Source: Cyanobacterium sp. T60_A2020_053 (lineage in GTDB: Bacteria; Cyanobacteriota; Cyanobacteriia; Cyanobacteriales; Cyanobacteriaceae). Taken from it: a stretch of DNA of 43,033 nucleotides. Under the pieces are notes generated by a model. That model saw nothing but the letters and a program-made list of their open reading frames with translations. It did not search any database and was not told the origin of the DNA. The position numbers and the translations under genes are program-made. The stretch is taken from assembly GCA_015272165.1 (NCBI GenBank), contig JACYMF010000024.1:1-43033 (forward strand), in the 5' to 3' direction. Shown here piece after piece: positions 4,674-35,040 of this stretch; the first letter of the stretch is position 1; every line of letters starts with the position of its first letter.

Positions 4674-5738
4674 ATGATGAGCAAAAAATTTATTCCTGTC
4701 ATCCTCGCTGGTGGAAAAGGTGAAAGATTCTGGCCCCTCAGTCGCCAAAAGCGCCCGAAACAATTTCTTTCCCTTGATGATAGTGGTACAAGTTTATTAC
4801 AAGCGACCGCCGAACGTTTATTACCCTTAGCAGATGGTTGGGAAAATTTATTGGTGATTACCTCTGCATTGGTGGCAGACAACGTCAGGCAACAATTACC
4901 CCAATTACCTGATAGCAATATTTTAGTCGAACCAGTAGGCAAGGATACCGCCCCAGCCGTAGCATGGTCAAGTCTTATCATAGCGGAAAAATTTGGGGGA
5001 GGGGCGCTGGCTGGTTTTTTTCCCTCCGATCATTGGATTGGTAATCAAGACCAATTTTTAGCTACAATCGAAGCAGGGATTAACTTTGCGCAACAACAAC
5101 AAGCCATCGTCACTCTTGGTATTAATCCTACTTATCCATCCACAGGTTATGGATACATAGAACAGGGCGAAAGTCAAGGAGAAATTAATAATTTACCTGT
5201 TTATAAAGTGAGTCGTTTTACTGAAAAACCAGATCAAGAAACGGCTACTAAATTTATCGCTACTGGTCAATATAATTGGAATAGTGGAATGTTTATTTTT
5301 CCCGTTGATTTAGTTATAGGAGAATTAAACAAATACGCCCCTGAAATTATGAATCCCCTACAAGAAAAGGGGGAGGGCGCTTATGAAGATTTGCCTAAAA
5401 TTAGTATCGATTATGCCTTGATGGAAAAGACTGATTTAGCTTACATTTTACCTGCTGATTTCGGTTGGGATGATTTGGGGGATTGGGGGGCGCTGGAAAG
5501 ACTATTAGATAGTAATGACAGTAATATTTCCAACAGTAATAATATTACTTATGATACTAAAAATTCGATTATTTATAGCAGTGAAAAAGAAGAAATAATC
5601 ATGACTATCGGAGTAGAAGATTTAGTTATTGTTAGAGACGGCAATGCTACTTTAATAGCCCATAAAAATAATACTCAAGATATTAAAAAAGCACTTAAAC
5701 TATTACAAAAAAAACGAGAAAATGATAAATTTTTATAA
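4674..5738 (+). CDS. manC: Mannose-1-phosphate guanylyltransferase
   Basis: A 354-aa nucleotidyltransferase making GDP-mannose from mannose-1-phosphate and GTP. The signature VILAGGKGERFWPLSR then RPKQFLSL at the N-terminus is the GTP/metal-binding loop, followed by PVGKDTAPA, GYGYIE and VSRFTEKP. It lacks the C-terminal phosphomannose isomerase (cupin) domain of the bifunctional ~470-aa enzymes. An upstream in-frame GTG at 4647 exists, but the ATG at 4674 (or 4677) puts the start next to the conserved beta strand, so I chose it. No strong Shine–Dalgarno is visible. Its product would feed polysaccharide, lipopolysaccharide or fucose synthesis. Confidence 0.9.
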   Translation: MMSKKFIPVILAGGKGERFWPLSRQKRPKQFLSLDDSGTSLLQATAERLLPLADGWENLLVITSALVADNVRQQLPQLPDSNILVEPVGKDTAPAVAWSSLIIAEKFGGGALAGFFPSDHWIGNQDQFLATIEAGINFAQQQQAIVTLGINPTYPSTGYGYIEQGESQGEINNLPVYKVSRFTEKPDQETATKFIATGQYNWNSGMFIFPVDLVIGELNKYAPEIMNPLQEKGEGAYEDLPKISIDYALMEKTDLAYILPADFGWDDLGDWGALERLLDSNDSNISNSNNITYDTKNSIIYSSEKEEIIMTIGVEDLVIVRDGNATLIAHKNNTQDIKKALKLLQKKRENDKFL

Positions 5739-25460: not shown

Positions 25461-25538
25461 ATGAAATGTCCAGAATGTGGCTCCGAGCGTATCAATAGAA
25501 ATTACAAACTTTGGGATGATTTCCAATTTCGTCATTAG
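25461..25538 (+). pseudogene. Truncated zinc-ribbon ORF, probable transposase N-terminus
   Basis: A 25-codon frame beginning ATG and MKCPECGSERINRN, then diverging into a TAG. The start CPxCGS is the kind of zinc ribbon that opens IS1-family InsA-like and related transposases in cyanobacteria. It lies 33 bases after the terminal repeat at 25404. Only the first ~14 residues look family-like; the rest is lost where the 16-bp direct repeat starts (25528). IS1 assignment is tentative. Confidence 0.45.
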
Positions 25539-25601: not shown

Positions 25602-25773
25602 AAAACTAAATAAATCACTTGTAGGGTAAGATATTGATTTCCATTGTGGATACTGCGATGGTGTATTTCAAACTTAGCTTTACGATAGAATCTGAGCAGT
25701 AACCAAAGAAGATTCTATAAATATATATGGATAAGGTAGAATACAACCTGCAAGTGATTTTTATTTTAGTTTT
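25602..25773 (+). ncRNA. Retron msr–msd non-coding RNA
   Basis: Upstream of the retron RT, the segment is closed by a long complementary pair: 25602–25625 (AAAACTAAA…ATCACTTGTAGG) against 25747–25773 (CCTGCAAGTGAT…TTTAGTTTT). These form about 24 base pairs with one G·U and a 3-base bulge, as expected for the a1/a2 stem. Inside, ATAGAATCT (25685–25693) pairs perfectly with AGATTCTAT (25710–25718), an msd-like hairpin with a 16-base loop, and CCAT…ATGG and TCCA…TGGA could form short msr hairpins. The branching G is not certain. A possible promoter (TTGTTA, 25558; TAGTAT, 25580) precedes it. The RT starts 43 bases after the stem. Confidence 0.75.
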
Positions 25774-25815: not shown

Positions 25816-26922
25816 ATGACGGCAAATCTTCCTCAAGGGCAATTAATTTCACCAAATCAGGATAAAAAGAATCGTTTATTACTCTCAGACTCTCCTGAAG
25901 AATTAAAACAAAAATTCTATGAATTAAAAACTCCTTTAGATGTTGCTAAACTCTTAAATATTCCTCATAAAAGATTAGTTTATCATCTTTATTTAGTTGA
26001 CTCCCAGAGACGTTATAAAACTTTTACTATTCCCAAAAGATCTGGCGGTGAAAGACAAATATCAACCCCGATTACGGCGTTAAAAATTATTCAACAAAAA
26101 CTTAATCAGGTTTTACAGGCAGTTTATCAGGTTAAGCCTTCAGTGCATGGTTTTGTGCAAGATAAAAATATTGTTACCAATGCCAAAGCCCATGTAAAAA
26201 AACGTTATATTTTAAATTTAGACTTAGAAAACTTTTTTCCTTCTGTCAATTTTGGGCGAGTTAGGGGAATGTTTATGGCAACTCCTTATCATTTACCTCC
26301 TAATGTGGCTACGGTATTAGCTCAAATTTGTTGTCAGAATAATGAGTTACCTCAAGGTGCGCCGACTTCTCCTATTATTACTAATATGATTTGTGGGAAG
26401 ATGGATAGTCAGTTACAACGTCTGGCAAAAGATTGTAAGGCAACTTATACTCGTTATGCTGATGATATGACTTTTTCTACTACTATCAAGGATTTTGCTG
26501 CGGATTTAGCTTATGTTGTTAATGAGGATGAGGGGAAAAAAGTTGTGTTGGGCGATCGCCTTTCGACTATCATCAGAGAGAATGGGTTTAGTGTGAATGA
26601 AAAGAAAACCCGTTTACAAACTAAGGGGAATCATCAAGAGGTAACGGGTTTAACCACTAATCAATTTCCCAATGTGGATAGACGTTATGTGCGTCAAGTC
26701 AGGGCGATGCTTCATGCTTGGGCTAAATTTGGTTTAGAATCTGCACAGAAGGAGTTTGAAGAAAAGTATCATCATAAGGCTAGATTTTCAGGGAAAGAAA
26801 TCCCTCGTTTTCAAGACGTATTAAAAGGTAAAATAGAGTTTATAGGTATGGTTAAGGGTAAGGACGATCTTATTTATCAAAAATATATAACTTTATATAA
26901 CAATCTGATGAGTTTAAATTAA
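25816..26922 (+). CDS. Retron reverse transcriptase
   Basis: A 368-aa RT that would prime on its own ncRNA to make msDNA. The catalytic YADD is at 214–217 (YTRYADDMTFS); LDLENFFPSV carries the first catalytic Asp and LPQGAPTSPI is the RT4 block. Two features mark it as a retron RT rather than group II intron or DGR: the region-X motif NAxxH (N122-A-K-A-H126) after VHGFVQDKNIVT, and the VTG motif at 276–278. There is no maturase or endonuclease domain. The C-terminal ~80 residues (thumb, msr recognition) are present. One HIP1 octamer lies inside (26552). It heads a tight operon: 30, 24 and 2 bases separate the next three genes. Confidence 0.93.
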   Translation: MTANLPQGQLISPNQDKKNRLLLSDSPEELKQKFYELKTPLDVAKLLNIPHKRLVYHLYLVDSQRRYKTFTIPKRSGGERQISTPITALKIIQQKLNQVLQAVYQVKPSVHGFVQDKNIVTNAKAHVKKRYILNLDLENFFPSVNFGRVRGMFMATPYHLPPNVATVLAQICCQNNELPQGAPTSPIITNMICGKMDSQLQRLAKDCKATYTRYADDMTFSTTIKDFAADLAYVVNEDEGKKVVLGDRLSTIIRENGFSVNEKKTRLQTKGNHQEVTGLTTNQFPNVDRRYVRQVRAMLHAWAKFGLESAQKEFEEKYHHKARFSGKEIPRFQDVLKGKIEFIGMVKGKDDLIYQKYITLYNNLMSLN

Positions 26923-26952: not shown

Positions 26953-27522
26953 ATGACTAACAATGAAAAAACAGAAATTGATGAATTAAAAAAACAAATT
27001 CATGAATTACACAGTTTACTCAGTAATTTAGAAACTTATGTAAAAGTTACTGGAGTTCAAAATTATCAAAAAGTTATCAATTATAATATCAATTATTCTA
27101 AAATTAGTTATCTTCAAAAAAATCATAAATTGAGAGAAAAACTTAATGATGATTGTGTGTTAATGATTAAAGCAAGATTAAATGATGATTTTACTGAATT
27201 TTGTCGTCTTTGTTGTTTACAAATTGAGTTAGTTGTCGATCATTTTATTAGATTTTATAGTCATAAAAATTTAATTGATTTAGAACAAACCCCTAATAAT
27301 ACGATCAAATCTATCACTGTTATTGCTACTGGTGAAAAATACAAAAAAGAATCTTATGAATTTCTTCCACTTAGTGATAAAGTTGAATTTTGTTGCAATA
27401 TGATTATGAATAAAAGTAATGAGGAAAAAATCACAAAAATTAAACAAATTATTAATCGTCTCATAAAAAACGAAAGAAATAAAGGCAGTCATAGGGATGC
27501 TTTTGATATTCCATTTATATAG
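26953..27522 (+). CDS. HEPN-like protein of the retron operon
   Basis: A 189-aa, mostly helical protein. Residues ~4–35 are a likely coiled coil (KTEIDELKKQIHELHSLLSNLE). The body is helical with Cys-rich CRLCCLQIELVVDHFIRFY. Near the C-terminus is R175-N-K-G-S-H180, which fits the HEPN ribonuclease motif R-(N/D/H)-x3-5-H; it sits in a helix NRLIKNERNKGSH, as in other HEPN proteins. That suggests an RNase toxin or effector. The gene follows the RT by 30 bases, so it is a prime candidate for the retron effector. The family beyond the motif is not recognised. Very AT-rich. Confidence 0.6.
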   Translation: MTNNEKTEIDELKKQIHELHSLLSNLETYVKVTGVQNYQKVINYNINYSKISYLQKNHKLREKLNDDCVLMIKARLNDDFTEFCRLCCLQIELVVDHFIRFYSHKNLIDLEQTPNNTIKSITVIATGEKYKKESYEFLPLSDKVEFCCNMIMNKSNEEKITKIKQIINRLIKNERNKGSHRDAFDIPFI

Positions 27523-27546: not shown

Positions 27547-27897
27547 ATGACAATTTATGTAAATTTACCTGATGAAGCTACCATAAATGGATTGATAAAA
27601 TTATTTTCTCAACATGGCTTCAATATAAAAGAAAAGTCAATTGAATTAAAAAATAAAGGATATAAATTCTGTTTTATTTATTTAGATAATCAACAATTAG
27701 AGAATGAATTTATTAATCATTTTTATAACATTAACTACCCTGAGACTAACTATCAGTTACGTCCTAAATTTAATCAACCATCTAGTCACAAAGAAATAGA
27801 TCATTGTGCGGAAAAAAAAGATTATGATTTAGTGACGGAAGTTCTCGAAGAATTTATCACTATATTATGCAATAAAATAGATACCCAAAGAAAATAA
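27547..27897 (+). CDS. Unknown small protein of the retron operon
   Basis: A 116-aa protein starting MTIYVNLPDEATINGLIKLFSQHGFNIKEKSIEL, with an alternating strand/helix pattern and no cysteine cluster, membrane segment or motif that I recognise. The C-terminal third is charged (HKEIDHCAEKKDYDLVTEVLEE, written here in two parts: HKEIDHCAEKKD and YDLVTEVLEE). It is 24 bases after the HEPN-like gene and 2 bases before the kinase–WYL gene, so it is surely co-transcribed. It could be an antitoxin or regulatory subunit to the HEPN-like protein; that is only inferred from position. Confidence 0.6.
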   Translation: MTIYVNLPDEATINGLIKLFSQHGFNIKEKSIELKNKGYKFCFIYLDNQQLENEFINHFYNINYPETNYQLRPKFNQPSSHKEIDHCAEKKDYDLVTEVLEEFITILCNKIDTQRK

Positions 27898-30271: not shown

Positions 30272-31084
30272 ATGACTAATCCTAACACAGAGGATAAAAT
30301 CATTTTTCAGCAACTTATTCAACCTTGGCAATTATCAGAATATTCCTTAACTTCATTAATTGGACAACATACAGCAGTAAGGGATAAATCAGCCGAAATT
30401 CTACAAAGTATTAACAATCAAATTGAGCAAAAATTATTAACAATTAAAATATGTTGTAATGATAAAAATGAGTGCCAAATTTTACCTAAATTAATTAAGG
30501 AACGTGCTTACTATATAGCAGTTTATTTGACTAACGCTACAGACATGGCATTAGTGAATCATTATGATGAGAAAATTGGCGAGGCTTTATCTAAATTAAA
30601 CATTCAAAATCCTGATAAACTTTACTACTACTTAGCCGAGATAGACTACCAACAACATCTATATAATTATTATCAAAAAAGCAGTAATATCCTATTATAT
30701 GTTGGGGCTTGGAATAGTCGCAAAAATATCAAAATAGGAGAATATTTAATTGAAGCCTTACAACTTGATAAAGATAAAATTTCTCCTGAAAAATTGTTAG
30801 ATTTATTAGAAGATCCTATCGATGAAATCGTCAAAGAATTTAGGGATAATGGTTTAGAAGTTTCCCCAATAGAATCAGAGCAGGAAAATAATGATTTTTT
30901 TGACAATGATGTAGAAGATGAAGAAGATTGGGATGAGGAAAAACCAGAACAAAATTATTATCAAGACCATAATGATGATGATGATGATTACTACTATAGT
31001 AATCCAGATCCTTTTGATGACGTAGATTGGGGAGATCCTGATAGTTTTAATGATGCGGCATGGGATCAGTTTCGAGATGATTAA
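30272..31084 (+). CDS. Unknown protein with a very acidic C-terminal tail
   Basis: A 270-aa protein. Residues 1–~195 are helical, with YYIAVYLTNATDMALVNHYDEKIGEAL and LYYYLAEIDYQQHLYNYYQKSS. From ~205 to the end nearly all residues are Asp, Glu, Asn, Tyr or Trp (NDDDDDYYYSNPDPFDDVDW; then DPDSFNDAAWDQ), a DNA-mimic-like acidic tail. I do not recognise the family. It lies 320 bp after the kinase–WYL gene on the same strand, and its stop overlaps the stop of the convergent sacsin-like gene by 4 bases. Confidence 0.6.
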   Translation: MTNPNTEDKIIFQQLIQPWQLSEYSLTSLIGQHTAVRDKSAEILQSINNQIEQKLLTIKICCNDKNECQILPKLIKERAYYIAVYLTNATDMALVNHYDEKIGEALSKLNIQNPDKLYYYLAEIDYQQHLYNYYQKSSNILLYVGAWNSRKNIKIGEYLIEALQLDKDKISPEKLLDLLEDPIDEIVKEFRDNGLEVSPIESEQENNDFFDNDVEDEEDWDEEKPEQNYYQDHNDDDDDYYYSNPDPFDDVDWGDPDSFNDAAWDQFRDD

Positions 31085-34000
31085 ATTTGTAACAAGAAAT
31101 CATCTTTGCTATCTAATAAATTATTCCAATTACTTCCTCTTAAGATACTCATATATGGATTTGTTCTCACATTAAATACTCTAGCAATATAGTAATTATC
31201 TTTATTTTCATCCATAAAAACCCATTCTTGGGGCGATAAATAAAATGGTATTGATTCATTATTAATTTTATCTGTTGTGGTTGCTTTTGAATCAATATAA
31301 ATAACTTGTTCTTTAATTTGTAACCTATTATTTTCTATAATTTTAAAATATTTAATAACTTTGAAGTCATAAGGTTTTGTTGATTCTCCATTTTTATTCT
31401 CCCAAACAATTTCAATCTCTTTCGGACAATTTTCTTTTCTAATCTCTACTCGGCAACCTTTTTCTGTATTTTTAAATTCATTATCTGATACTTGATAATT
31501 TGCTTTAATTATTTCTAATAATTCTTTATACAAAAATTCTTCTCCAAGTTTTCCAGTTTCAGCGTCAAATTGTTTTTGTTCATTTGACCTCGCCAACGAA
31601 TTGTTAATTAAACTATCTGTAGTGGGCAATATAAATTCTTGCTCTTCTTCTAAGTACTGAGACAGAATTTGTGTAGTATCATATCCTTGTTCTTTTAGCC
31701 ATTCTAAACCACTACTTATATTATCTAAAATTAATAAATTTAACTCTTTTTCCATCCTTTTATTTTTTAGGAGACTTCCTAATTCTTCTGTTAGTGAATA
31801 TAAAGTTCTTGGACTATCCCAATTCCCTGAAAAATAAAACTCTTGACTTTGAGGATTAAACCGAGCATTTCTTTTTTGTGTAAATATTTCTACTCCATTT
31901 TGTTCACAAGATATATAAAGTTCGCTTACTTCATAAAAAATGGTTTCATCTAAAATTTTACTCATTTTACTAAACACATTTTGCCAATCTTCTTCTAATT
32001 GAGTAGATGAAACTAAAGCAATAAGAGGTAAACGACTTTTTAATCTTCTTTTTAGATCTGATACTTCATTTTTATCTTCACTTGTAACAAAATTTAAGTC
32101 CTCATCAGTAATTATTTTTACTCCCCATAATCTGAGTAGATTTATAACTTCAGAATCTTTTTTAGGTAATTTTACAAAATTATTAATATTAGCAGGAAGT
32201 TCACAAATTTTTGTGTCAACCCAATATAAATCTTGAGGAGAATAAAAAGAGTTATCAATTGCCATAACCTTATTTGATTCTCCCCATTTCTTGATCATTT
32301 CTTTTTCATAGTCTTGATCATATTTAGTAAGAGCTTGATAAATTAATCCAATGCGTTCAATAATATTACTTATATCTTTATCTTCATCTTGGGTTTCTGA
32401 AATTATCATCAAAACATCAAGATATTCTTCAAGATTAATAGTTTCTCTAAAGTTAAATAATTTTTGTAATTCTGGTTTTATTTCTACTTTTAAATCTAGT
32501 ATTGATAAATCTTTTCCTCCTATTTTCTGAAATTCTTTTCTATTAATAATTACTTCTTCAGCTTTATAACATTCACCTTTAACTGTCGGAATACAACTTT
32601 CATGTGTTAAAAACCAGATAAGATAATTTGGTTCAACATTATCTCCTTGAGATCTACCTGTTCGATTACCATACCCCCAATAATATTGAATTATATTACT
32701 AATTTTTAATAAAAAATTATTTTTAACAATTTTTTCCCAAAAAAAACGAGAAAATTTATAATTTTTTGTTTCTTCTACAAAAGTTAATTTTGTTAATGAT
32801 TTTATTTCATTGTCACTTCTCATTAAATGTGGGTATACAGTGAAAGGATATTGTTGAGTATTTTTCAAAAAATCAAAATATTCAGTAGAAAATATCTTTT
32901 CTAGTTTACTTATCGTTGTTCTTTCTTGTATTTCTTCGATTCCTATCTTTTCCTTTACTCCTATCAAAACAAAAAAATAATTCCAGTCTTTTATATTATC
33001 ATTTTCTCTAATATATTCAGATGATATAAAATATTTTGACTCCAAATATTCTTCCAAATTCAACTCAGGTTCATATTCATCTGATAAATATAAATGATAT
33101 TCTGATAACTTACAAGGTAAACTATTTTTAGTTATCAAATATAAATTTTTTAATTGATATATATTACTTTCATTTATTTCTCCTTGTTTATGAGCATCAA
33201 ATAAATATCTAACAATTTGAATAGATTTTTCAGCAGTTTCACTCAGAGAATCAAGATTTGGTAAAATATTTTTGTCAAGAATATTACTTTGGGTTGGATA
33301 AGTTATATTTAAGTCTTTTTGCAGCCATTGCAATATCAATTTATTCTCAGATATTTGTGCTAATACTTCTTCATTAATAAAAGAAAGTTCTTGGTTATGA
33401 GCAACTAAATCATCATCCTCATCATCCATATCTAATTCTTCTACAGGAAAATAGATAGGTTTATTAGGAGAAGTTAATTGTTGATATTGATTAAAAAGAA
33501 ATGGTAAACTCGGCAGTTTTTCTTTCCAGTATTTTCCTTGTTGTTCATCTTGTGCTTTATTGTATAAAAATTCAATAAGCTGATATGTATCATCTATAGA
33601 TAACTGACTTTGAAAAATATCAGATTCAAATAAATTTGGTATATCTTTTAACGAAAACTCTTTAACCCCAAAATTAATTAATTTATTAACATGAATAATA
33701 TTATGATTAACTAAATAAACAGAAATATTTTTATTAATTGCTATTTTATAATACTCCAAAAATGATTCTTTTCCTATAACATAATTAATATCTGTTTTAT
33801 CAATCAAAGATTCACTTATTTTCAATAATTTATAACTTTCGCTAGGAATAAATGCAATACTATTTTTAGCTTTATTTAATCCATTATTGAATGCCTCTAT
33901 AATTTTATTATAACCTTTTAACTTATCAGGAATCAATTGACTTATTTGATATTTATATCTTGGATTTTTAGCTAATTCTGCTAACCATTCTAATAACTTA

Positions 34001-35040
34001 AAAGCAACTTGTTCAAAAAGATATTGATTCCAAACTCTATCTTCATGGAATCCCTCTCTTGGTGCATTTGTGAGAAAATCTGCATTGATCAGGAATGGAA
34101 AACCTAAACTAATTTTTGTGGGCAGATAAGTAAAAATTAAAGATTCATCATTTTTTAAGGGAATGATTTTATTATTTTCAACTTTTGCGGCAAAAGAAAT
34201 ACTAGAATATTTTGCTTCTTTTAGTTTTTTTGGTGAATATTCATCTCCTTTTAGCTTTTCTTGTATTTCTTTACTAATAGGAAATCCCATAAAATCTTTT
34301 TTTATCCATTCACTTTCAATATATCCATTTTTTTTCAAAGTTATAGTTTCATTTGTGGTTAATTTTTCTACCGTTACAATATCTTTACTATTTTCCCTAA
34401 TAATTATTTTATTTACTTTTCTCAAAAAAAGCATTATTTGGGGATGTTCTAAGAGCTTTAATAAATCTTGTTTTAATTCATCCGTTTTTTCATATTTAAT
34501 AATAGTAGAAACTTTATAAAAATGAATAAAAGACACAGATTTTAATTCTGAAATATTATTTATATCTGTCCAAATAGGAATTATTTGCCAAGGCATTTTA
34601 TATTCTTTATTTTCCCAATGTTTTTTATCAAAGCGAAAACAAAAATCATTTGATTTAATACAAACATAATTTGATTTACCGAAAACAGATTTAAACCCAA
34701 TTCCTTTATATCCTGTTTTATTGGGATCTTCTAATTTTTGACTTTTTCCAACTCCACAAATAGATCTAATATCTTTTTCTGTAAATTCTTTTCCCGTATG
34801 AGAAATAATAATAAAATTATCCGTAAATTCAATAATAACACTGACTCCTTTTGTTGAATCATCAGAAGCATCATCGGCATTTTGGATTAATTCATAGATA
34901 AATCTTTCACTTTCTGAATATATATCATTGGAAAGTATATCTAATGAGTTTGCTGAATCTTCCGCTTGGCTTCGGTATTTATATTCTGACTTTTCTTTTG
35001 ATAATTGTTCAATAAATCTTTGTTTTTCCGATAGACTCAT
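31081..35040 (-). CDS. Sacsin-like GHKL ATPase with DUF3883-type C-terminus
   Basis: A 1319-aa protein. The N-terminal Hsp90/sacsin-type nucleotide-binding fold has E50-L-I-Q-N54-A-D-D (metal-binding Asn), H81-T-G where canonical proteins have DxG, and G113-I-G-F-K (GYKGIGFKSVF). The long middle (~300–1130) has no motif that I can name. Residues ~1155–1290 (AETGKLGEEFLYKELLEI, EIVWENKNG, KPYDFKVIKYFKI, then EQVIYIDSKATTTDK) resemble the DUF3883 'protein NO VEIN' C-terminal domain, thought to be a nuclease-like fold. Large sacsin/NOV proteins recur in prokaryotic defence islands. The mechanism is unknown. It is convergent with the acidic-tail gene. Confidence 0.8.
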   Translation of the reverse strand: MSLSEKQRFIEQLSKEKSEYKYRSQAEDSANSLDILSNDIYSESERFIYELIQNADDASDDSTKGVSVIIEFTDNFIIISHTGKEFTEKDIRSICGVGKSQKLEDPNKTGYKGIGFKSVFGKSNYVCIKSNDFCFRFDKKHWENKEYKMPWQIIPIWTDINNISELKSVSFIHFYKVSTIIKYEKTDELKQDLLKLLEHPQIMLFLRKVNKIIIRENSKDIVTVEKLTTNETITLKKNGYIESEWIKKDFMGFPISKEIQEKLKGDEYSPKKLKEAKYSSISFAAKVENNKIIPLKNDESLIFTYLPTKISLGFPFLINADFLTNAPREGFHEDRVWNQYLFEQVAFKLLEWLAELAKNPRYKYQISQLIPDKLKGYNKIIEAFNNGLNKAKNSIAFIPSESYKLLKISESLIDKTDINYVIGKESFLEYYKIAINKNISVYLVNHNIIHVNKLINFGVKEFSLKDIPNLFESDIFQSQLSIDDTYQLIEFLYNKAQDEQQGKYWKEKLPSLPFLFNQYQQLTSPNKPIYFPVEELDMDDEDDDLVAHNQELSFINEEVLAQISENKLILQWLQKDLNITYPTQSNILDKNILPNLDSLSETAEKSIQIVRYLFDAHKQGEINESNIYQLKNLYLITKNSLPCKLSEYHLYLSDEYEPELNLEEYLESKYFISSEYIRENDNIKDWNYFFVLIGVKEKIGIEEIQERTTISKLEKIFSTEYFDFLKNTQQYPFTVYPHLMRSDNEIKSLTKLTFVEETKNYKFSRFFWEKIVKNNFLLKISNIIQYYWGYGNRTGRSQGDNVEPNYLIWFLTHESCIPTVKGECYKAEEVIINRKEFQKIGGKDLSILDLKVEIKPELQKLFNFRETINLEEYLDVLMIISETQDEDKDISNIIERIGLIYQALTKYDQDYEKEMIKKWGESNKVMAIDNSFYSPQDLYWVDTKICELPANINNFVKLPKKDSEVINLLRLWGVKIITDEDLNFVTSEDKNEVSDLKRRLKSRLPLIALVSSTQLEEDWQNVFSKMSKILDETIFYEVSELYISCEQNGVEIFTQKRNARFNPQSQEFYFSGNWDSPRTLYSLTEELGSLLKNKRMEKELNLLILDNISSGLEWLKEQGYDTTQILSQYLEEEQEFILPTTDSLINNSLARSNEQKQFDAETGKLGEEFLYKELLEIIKANYQVSDNEFKNTEKGCRVEIRKENCPKEIEIVWENKNGESTKPYDFKVIKYFKIIENNRLQIKEQVIYIDSKATTTDKINNESIPFYLSPQEWVFMDENKDNYYIARVFNVRTNPYMSILRGSNWNNLLDSKDDFLLQI

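Follow-up and report, generated by a model that had tools for sequence, protein, structure and literature searches.

A retron msr–msd RNA upstream of a stand-alone reverse transcriptase and a candidate HEPN ribonuclease gene in a Cyanobacterium genome

A contig of 43,033 nucleotides from Cyanobacterium sp. T60_A2020_053 (the whole stretch analysed, referred to here as the window) carries long inverted repeats between positions 25602 and 25773, which the initial annotation read as a retron msr–msd RNA. We asked whether this reading holds in related genomes, where such an RNA would be primed, and which of the genes that follow might encode the effector of the system.

Structure and covariation of the RNA

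Reading of the sequence confirmed the closing stem of about 24 bp formed by 25602–25625 and 25747–25773 that had been described at the outset. Its core is 14 contiguous bp (25612–25625 with 25747–25760), including one U·G pair (25622·25750), and a further 10 bp are formed outward of the core by 25602–25611 with 25763–25773, with positions 25761, 25762 and 25767 unpaired on the 3′ side. The minimum-energy fold shows 22 of these 24 bp (14 + 8). The segment 25590–25790 folded at -48.9 kcal/mol, compared with -33.9 ± 4.1 kcal/mol for 200 shuffled sequences, none of which was as good (z -3.65). The perfect inner 9-bp hairpin of the initial annotation was also found, ATAGAATCT (25685–25693) pairing with AGATTCTAT (25710–25718). 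By itself this hairpin is unremarkable, as the 68-nt msd region has a z of -0.91 in the window and of -4.58 to +0.56 across the 26 copies described below. An Rfam scan of the window gave no family at gathering score, and a promoter scan returned two sites, both on the minus strand, versus 2.6 expected. A short open frame just 5′ of the RNA, MKCPECGSERINRNYKLWDDFQFRH (window 25461-25538, plus strand), resembles by eye the start of an insertion-sequence protein. The parts of the RNA are as follows.

25602..25611, plus strand: a1 outer extension; partner 25763–25773 with three unpaired bases on the 3′ side; absent from most copies
25612..25625, plus strand: a1 inverted repeat of 14 bp, family-wide; partner 25747–25760; 11 of 14 pairs doubly changed
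25632..25635, plus strand: 5′ side of the inner helix, UAUU; partner AAUA at 25740–25743; abuts the predicted priming G on its 5′ side
25636..25636, plus strand: predicted priming (branching) guanosine, the G of UUGAUUU; invariant in 24/24 copies; by analogy with rG15 of Eco2
25641..25661, plus strand: msr hairpin of 7 bp, CCAUUGU-loop-GCGAUGG; 100% of cells paired, 3 of 7 pairs doubly changed
25662..25670, plus strand: putative msr linker of 9 nt, from the Eco2 layout; equal in length to Eco2 ssRb
25671..25738, plus strand: predicted msd template of 68 nt, from the Eco2 spacing; contains UUAGC (25674–25678) and the 9-bp hairpin
25740..25743, plus strand: 3′ side of the inner helix, AAUA; from covariation
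25747..25760, plus strand: a2, 14-bp inverted repeat; from covariation
25763..25773, plus strand: a2 outer extension; from the sequence and minimum-energy folds

Relatives of the RT were sought in 100 related genomes, 48 of which gave a match at E 0.001, many of them distant, and in further searches of genome contigs (15 loci), plasmids and phages; the DNA upstream was then read. This yielded 26 copies of one RNA in 24 loci. Alignment A2 comprised 24 copies, L034 and L035 being omitted because their joined pieces are identical to those of L033; L035 was likewise omitted from alignment A1, where it is the same as L033. Across A2, 89.1% of 760 cells held standard pairs, and 21 of 32 pairs showed at least one change on both sides. 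For all five pairing measures the observed value exceeded that of every one of 500 shuffles, and pairing fell to 34–52% when the partners were displaced by one to three columns.

Compensatory change between a1 and a2 in homologous loci, the check proposed in the initial annotation, was observed at 11 of the 14 pairs over the 24 copies, a count favoured by the anchoring of the 3′ pieces of A2 on their complementarity to a1. An unanchored alignment gave the same columns except for L040a and L052. Because their register in A2 is shifted, L051 and L052 counted against the a1/a2 stem. The stems of L053 and L059 are largely rewritten, and so is that of L051, in which CTGTAGACATCC lies opposite GGATGTCTACAG, off register by one in A2. 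In the inner helix, 93.3% of cells were paired over five pairs, three of which (the flanking pair included) were doubly changed, as UAUA/UAUA in L050b and L057 and as CUAUU/AAUAG in L053 and L059. The window forms four of the five pairs, and its msd-base helix has a G·G mismatch. An alternative helix, in which GUAUU after the msr stem pairs with the same AAUAC (A2 columns 68–72 with 112–116), was also considered. It paired in 87.5% of 120 cells, a value reached by 12 of 500 shuffles, with one of five pairs doubly changed, and it drops at least two pairs in L050a, L050b, L051, L052, L053, L057 and L059; the inner helix was preferred.

The closing stem had also been called unusually long, which the family does not support, as its members share the 14 bp and an inner helix of 4–5 bp. 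In the minimum-energy folds of the 26 copies, the outer extension has 8–9 pairs in five (the window, L031, L046, L047 and L048), 3–5 pairs in seven and 0–1 in fourteen. The stem is thus not unusual, since its 24 bp lie within the range of about 8–30 complementary a1/a2 bases given for known retrons in PMC6868368, and since the long extension occurs in 5 of 26 copies only.

The RNA is closely linked to this RT in other genomes. A search of 291 genomes with a sequence pattern for the msr core gave matches in 12, each of them followed by the RT (12/12), and the reversed control pattern matched in none. A covariance model matched one place in the genome of the window; in a scan of 388 genomes of the order, it matched 31 places distributed over 29 genomes. 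The RT followed on the same strand at all 30 model-matched loci that were fetched, in broken form in G070 and G160; 13 of these 30 were outside the model-building set, one of which, G234, scores like L059 and may be a near copy. Applied to 43 loci, the model gave 29 matches below 1e-8 in 27 loci, including two with RTs fused to AAA_5 (L053 and L059), and a weak match in L058, upstream of an RT-Toprim gene (E 0.054). In the same set, nine loci whose fused RTs are more distant gave no match, and neither did L044 (where the contig starts with the RT), L045, L060, L061, L062 and L063. L053 and L059 (L059:3983-8346) each carry a 696-aa gene adjoining the RT–AAA_5 gene, and their msd would be only 22 nt by the Eco2 spacing. 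L145 and L146, with RTs of 52–53% identity, have the RNA family upstream and a different neighbour of about 220 aa (MYYQIWNFFLKED...).

In the window, the RT open reading frame begins at 25816, and the RNA lies directly upstream of it, as first annotated. With the covariation, an RT downstream of every checked match and the RT motifs NAXXH, YADD and VTG, the original reading stands: on this comparative sequence evidence, 25602–25773 is a genuine retron msr–msd RNA.

Genes downstream of the reverse transcriptase

Four genes follow the RNA on the same strand.

25816..26922, plus strand: stand-alone retron RT, 368 aa; from profiles, structure search and motifs
26953..27522, plus strand: predicted HEPN-domain RNase (candidate effector), 189 aa; RNKGSH at residues 175–180
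27547..27897, plus strand: 116-aa partner protein, weakly matching the C-terminal half (RRM fold plus helices) of a fused Nostocales form of about 290 aa
27900..29951, plus strand: AAA_33 (P-loop kinase-like) and WYL protein, 683 aa; third gene in some loci, not retron-specific

The 189-aa protein carries RNKGSHRDA near its C-terminal end. We counted neighbours at those loci where the RT was unbroken and 57% identical or more, and where the sequence read extended 1 kb or further downstream. An adjacent downstream ORF with Rx4-6H was present in 23 of 25 such loci, and one with the stricter R[ND]xx[STAE]H in 20 of 25 (18/18 and 16/18 in a first batch, then 5/7 and 4/7). L055 and L043 (too little downstream), G364, G326 and L044 were omitted, and L071, L072 and L074 were counted after extension, as L135, L136 and L137. 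No Rx4-6H gene adjoined the RT in two of the counted loci, L135 and L144, or in the broken-RT loci L049 and L142, and the more distant L052, L145 and L146 (RT 51–53% identity) have other neighbours or none. By computation, then, a conserved and covarying RNA comes with an RT in every checked locus and frequently with an Rx4-6H neighbour. Rx4-6H is a loose pattern, which the unrelated 696-aa neighbour in L053 matches as well. The constant position of the motif in the sequence alignment is a stronger point than its presence: R175, S179 and H180 (window numbering) are invariant in 9/9 aligned members. A profile of the HEPN family matched in nine of 120 genomes and adjoined the RT in seven; of the other two, the match in G093 lies at a contig end, with the RT contig ending there too, and that in G085 is weak (E 0.001) and elsewhere.

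The structural model of the window protein is mostly helical (pLDDT 77.8, below 50 over residues 177–189, H180 included). Its top two VIA alignments were to 7bxo_H (Z 6.5, rmsd 3.0, 95 residues aligned) and to 4rgp_A, Csm6 (Z 5.9, rmsd 5.6, 157 aligned), both in the possible-chance range, as a Z below 8 may reflect a common helical arrangement. 7BXO is a complex of HepT(Y104A) with MntA–AMP-PNP (PMC7641770), whose chain H we assume to be the HEPN toxin HepT rather than MntA, and PMC13405049 counts Csm6 among the HEPN RNases. Pfam, PADLOC and NCBIfam gave no match to the 189-aa protein, Pfam DUF4145 was found on L033 only and weakly (E 0.43), and Foldseek with the window model returned nothing below E 0.001. 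When the HEPN alignment was run as a profile against solved structures, two matches appeared at E 0.4 (AlkD2 and an uncharacterized protein). We regard the gene next to the RT as likely to encode a HEPN RNase that serves as the retron effector, the HEPN assignment within this being weak.

HepT, of the HEPN/MNT pairs, resembles the window protein in its Rx4H RNase motif (PMC7641770) and as the top structural alignment, whereas the window protein lacks the HxY tyrosine after the motif, reading SHRDA instead. A Pfam scan of nine window proteins found no nucleotidyltransferase. The HEPN RNase and second small protein described for the type IX retron Retron-Kva2 (PMC13405049) offer another parallel. 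However, the partner there is a winged-helix protein and the fused partner here has an RRM fold (L036); no canonical HEPN motif is described there, whereas R(N/D)xxSH occurs in most members here; and the genes lie downstream of the RT here. The PADLOC RT_IX profile ranks 25th of the 64 families that matched the RT (5e-53), so that the window RT is not of type IX, by profile ranking only.

The 116-aa partner ORF begins 24 nt after the HEPN-type gene, in the same frame. A profile spans both window ORFs with one stop between them, and the Nostocales protein of about 290 aa appears to cover both. By BLAST, the partner of the window matched the second ORF of L033 (E 0.002), which in turn matched residues 193–292 of L039 (E 0.005). 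The genes are split at about the same place in L032 (as L054) and L033, in different frames, and in L040, in the same frame; the split in the window is therefore not simply a nonsense mutation. The model of a fused relative, L036 (pLDDT 87.2), has an RRM fold at residues 171–256 (Z up to 9.3), and in L040 Pfam finds RRM_1 on the second ORF (4.4e-8). Foldseek with the fused model returned nothing below 0.001, its best matches being RRM domains from E 0.085 up. Our guess is that the RRM half might bind RNA or tether the protein to the RT–msDNA particle.

The third gene bears on the choice of effector. It follows in seven loci by BLAST (the window, L054, L046, L047, L048, L040 and L050), and L057 has an ATP-binding protein of like size by annotation. 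An AAA_33–WYL copy of 85% identity also lies near a short RT remnant in G010 (G010:C1:2215243-2217725), apparently a decayed copy of the locus. These occurrences would suit a scheme in which the retron RNA and RT are real, the AAA_33–WYL protein is the effector and the HEPN-like protein a regulator or antitoxin. We consider this unlikely: of 60 genomes, 49 contain matches to AAA_33–WYL, often partial, and most of those genomes lack this RT, so that we treat the protein as an optional partner, and nine Nostocales loci (L033–L039, L041 and L042) have no such ORF while keeping the HEPN-type gene. In L137 the third gene is a different one that encodes a protein of about 800 aa whose start looks cold-shock-like by eye, and L138 has a similar gene after its HEPN-type gene.

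The reverse transcriptase and its predicted priming site

The hallmarks of retron RTs are NAXXH in region X, YxDD and VTG in region Y, as set out in PMC6868368. The window RT has NAKAH at 122, YADD at 214 and VTG at 276, and among 24 RTs of more than 58% identity NAXXH and YxDD are present in all 24 and VTG in 23. The closest solved structure is that of retron Ec67/Eco2 (E 2e-60). Close relatives include RTs of Geminocystis, one of them plasmid-borne and 85% identical, and of Nostocales, and one member of the family, L057, lies on plasmid pAQ5 of Picosynechococcus sp. PCC 7002; by the Eco2 spacing its msd would be about 91 nt, with the G of UAGAUUU (L057:3828) as the predicted priming base. 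No RT relative turned up in viral_contigs.

The best PADLOC profiles, RT-Protease_XI (9e-141), RT-TIR_XII and RT-Toprim_I-C, matched with their RT part alone. Types XI (RT-Protease) and XII (RT-TIR) are single fused genes, but the fused domain is absent here: the 368-aa protein stops after the RT part, Pfam gives RVT_1 only, and the RT scores under the NCBIfam cut-offs (393.5 versus 600 for the TIR model). Such profiles could mean that the RT is a decayed type XI, XII or I-C fusion now without its C-terminal effector, with unrelated cargo as neighbours. In an RT tree of 48 rows, however, all stand-alone RTs but one form a group (23 of 24; 90/95), the exception being L052, and the RT–AAA_5 fusions L053 and L059 stand next to this group (93/83), neither fork reaching the strict mark of the tool. 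The catalytic motifs are also kept, and an Rx4-6H-type neighbour accompanies the RT in 23/25 loci, so that we hold a decayed fusion to be quite improbable. The tree omits L049 and L062 (each broken or not in frame in the extracted sequence) and L029 (the shortest ORF of the fused group, 392 aa), and long branches make the deep placement of L060, L061, L063, L045, L058 and L052 unsure. The RT of L045 is fused to TIR, and that of L058 matches RT-Toprim over its length.

Eco2 provided the frame for locating the priming site. As described in PMC12405507, its RNA has the branched rG15, rA16–rU19, a stem-loop at rG20–rU42, a 9-nt linker and a DNA-paired part, with an msd of 67 bases; rA16–rU19 reads AUUU by eye in the Ec67-family locus L060. 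The window presents the same order, with G25636, AUUU, the stem 25641–25661, 9 nt and the template. By its position relative to a1 and the msr stem, G25636 is the predicted priming guanosine; it is unchanged in 24/24 aligned copies and lies directly 3′ of the inner helix. The msDNA is predicted at about 68 nt, from template 25671–25738. We infer that copying would start from A25738, with G25739 skipped, which would make the first base dT, as in the msDNA of Eco2 (dT1; PMC12405507).

The initial annotation had suggested that the priming site may differ from the usual one. This holds for the context, which is UUGA at the predicted G25636 and not the common TAGC, but not for the place, which is the same as in Eco2. 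Similarly, UUAGC is absent from the predicted priming site, as had been stated, but the motif is present elsewhere, at 25674–25678 on the side of the msr hairpin that faces the msd. As a priming site, this second position was rejected: it is variable (UUAGC, UCAGC, UCCGC and others) and sits past the msr hairpin.

Retron-Eco2 (Ec67), of type I-C, thus shares with the window the RNA order a1, priming G, 4 nt, one msr stem-loop, 9-nt linker, msd of about 67 nt and a2, and the E. coli plasmid locus L060 of the Ec67 family also reads a1-G-AUUU-stem by eye. The two differ in that the window RT has no fused Toprim and a separate HEPN-type gene lies downstream, in the priming context, UUGA here (UAGA in L050b and L057) versus CAGA in Eco2 (PMC6868368), and in that the covariance model finds no match in L060.

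In the distant loci L058 and L063, no G is found by eye between a1 and the msr stem at the place of G25636; their RTs are fused and may prime elsewhere. This would be expected of a DRT-type RT, which uses its RNA as a template without 2′-OH priming. For the window RT we judge this very improbable in view of the retron motifs, the Eco2-like RNA and NCBIfam Drt2 and Drt4 scores well under the cut-off. Least credible of all is that the stem-loops serve solely to terminate or attenuate transcription passing from the upstream region into the RT, a reading that draws on the T-rich run after a2 (25758–25767) and on a terminator scan that calls the msr hairpin 25641–25661 (one found versus 0.2 ± 0.4 expected; loops of 3–8 only, with a1/a2 beyond its reach), because covariation of a1/a2, inner helix and msr hairpin together with an invariant G25636 exceeds what a terminator needs.

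Proposed mechanism and tandem RNAs

The locus probably encodes a retron–HEPN abortive-infection system, with the retron RNA and RT as sensor and the HEPN protein and its partner as effector. By analogy with Eco2, the RNA would be transcribed upstream of the RT, and the a1/a2 stem and short inner helix would present G25636; the RT would bind the msr hairpin, prime on the 2′-OH of G25636, skip G25739 and copy from A25738 to about 25671, yielding a branched msDNA of about 68 nt. The RT–msDNA particle would be the sensor. From what is described for other retrons, type IX especially (PMC13405049), the HEPN protein and partner ORF would form an RNA-cutting effector kept inactive by the particle, and a phage that alters the particle would release the HEPN RNase, so that RNA is cut and growth stops. 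For a group of cyanobacterial retrons with Eco2 as the nearest solved relative, this reading points to a predicted priming guanosine, the template and a likely effector, and the pAQ5 member in Picosynechococcus sp. PCC 7002, a strain in wide laboratory use, makes the proposed steps open to testing. The effector of the cyanobacterial loci would likely be an RNA-cutting toxin, unlike those known for the closest relatives. If the HEPN link is true, the occurrence of one RNA family before both HEPN-neighboured and AAA_5-fused RTs would make effector swapping behind one sensor RNA testable.

Two loci, L040 and L050, have two complete msr–msd copies in a row before a single RT.

L040, 5339-5565 and 5784-5967: tandem msr–msd copies, with the conserved G at 5379 and 5824
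L050, 9282-9480 and 8988-9154, minus strand: tandem msr–msd copies

This arrangement was found in 2 of 27 model-matched loci (2 of 29 genomes). The L040 pair is 87% identical in the leaders, 98% in the cores and 27% in the msd loops; the L050 pair is 83% identical in the cores and 27% in the leaders. The tandem RNAs raise the question of whether one retron can watch more than one trigger. It is quite possible, though we lean slightly the other way, that these loci represent an uncatalogued cyanobacterial retron type, in which an Eco2-like RNA and an unfused RT are joined by a HEPN–RRM RNase encoded whole or in two parts depending on the lineage, and which in some members (L040 and L050) has two tandem RNAs per RT with alike priming parts and unrelated msd loops, so that two DNA sensors could guard one effector. 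Among the titles and first lines of abstracts returned by literature searches on retrons and on HepT, we found no cyanobacterial retron with HEPN and no tandem msr–msd.

A second candidate defence gene lies near the retron, on the minus strand of the window (31081-35040); it encodes a 1319-aa protein with sacsin-like and NOV_C domains and has a PADLOC TmtA score of 1066.
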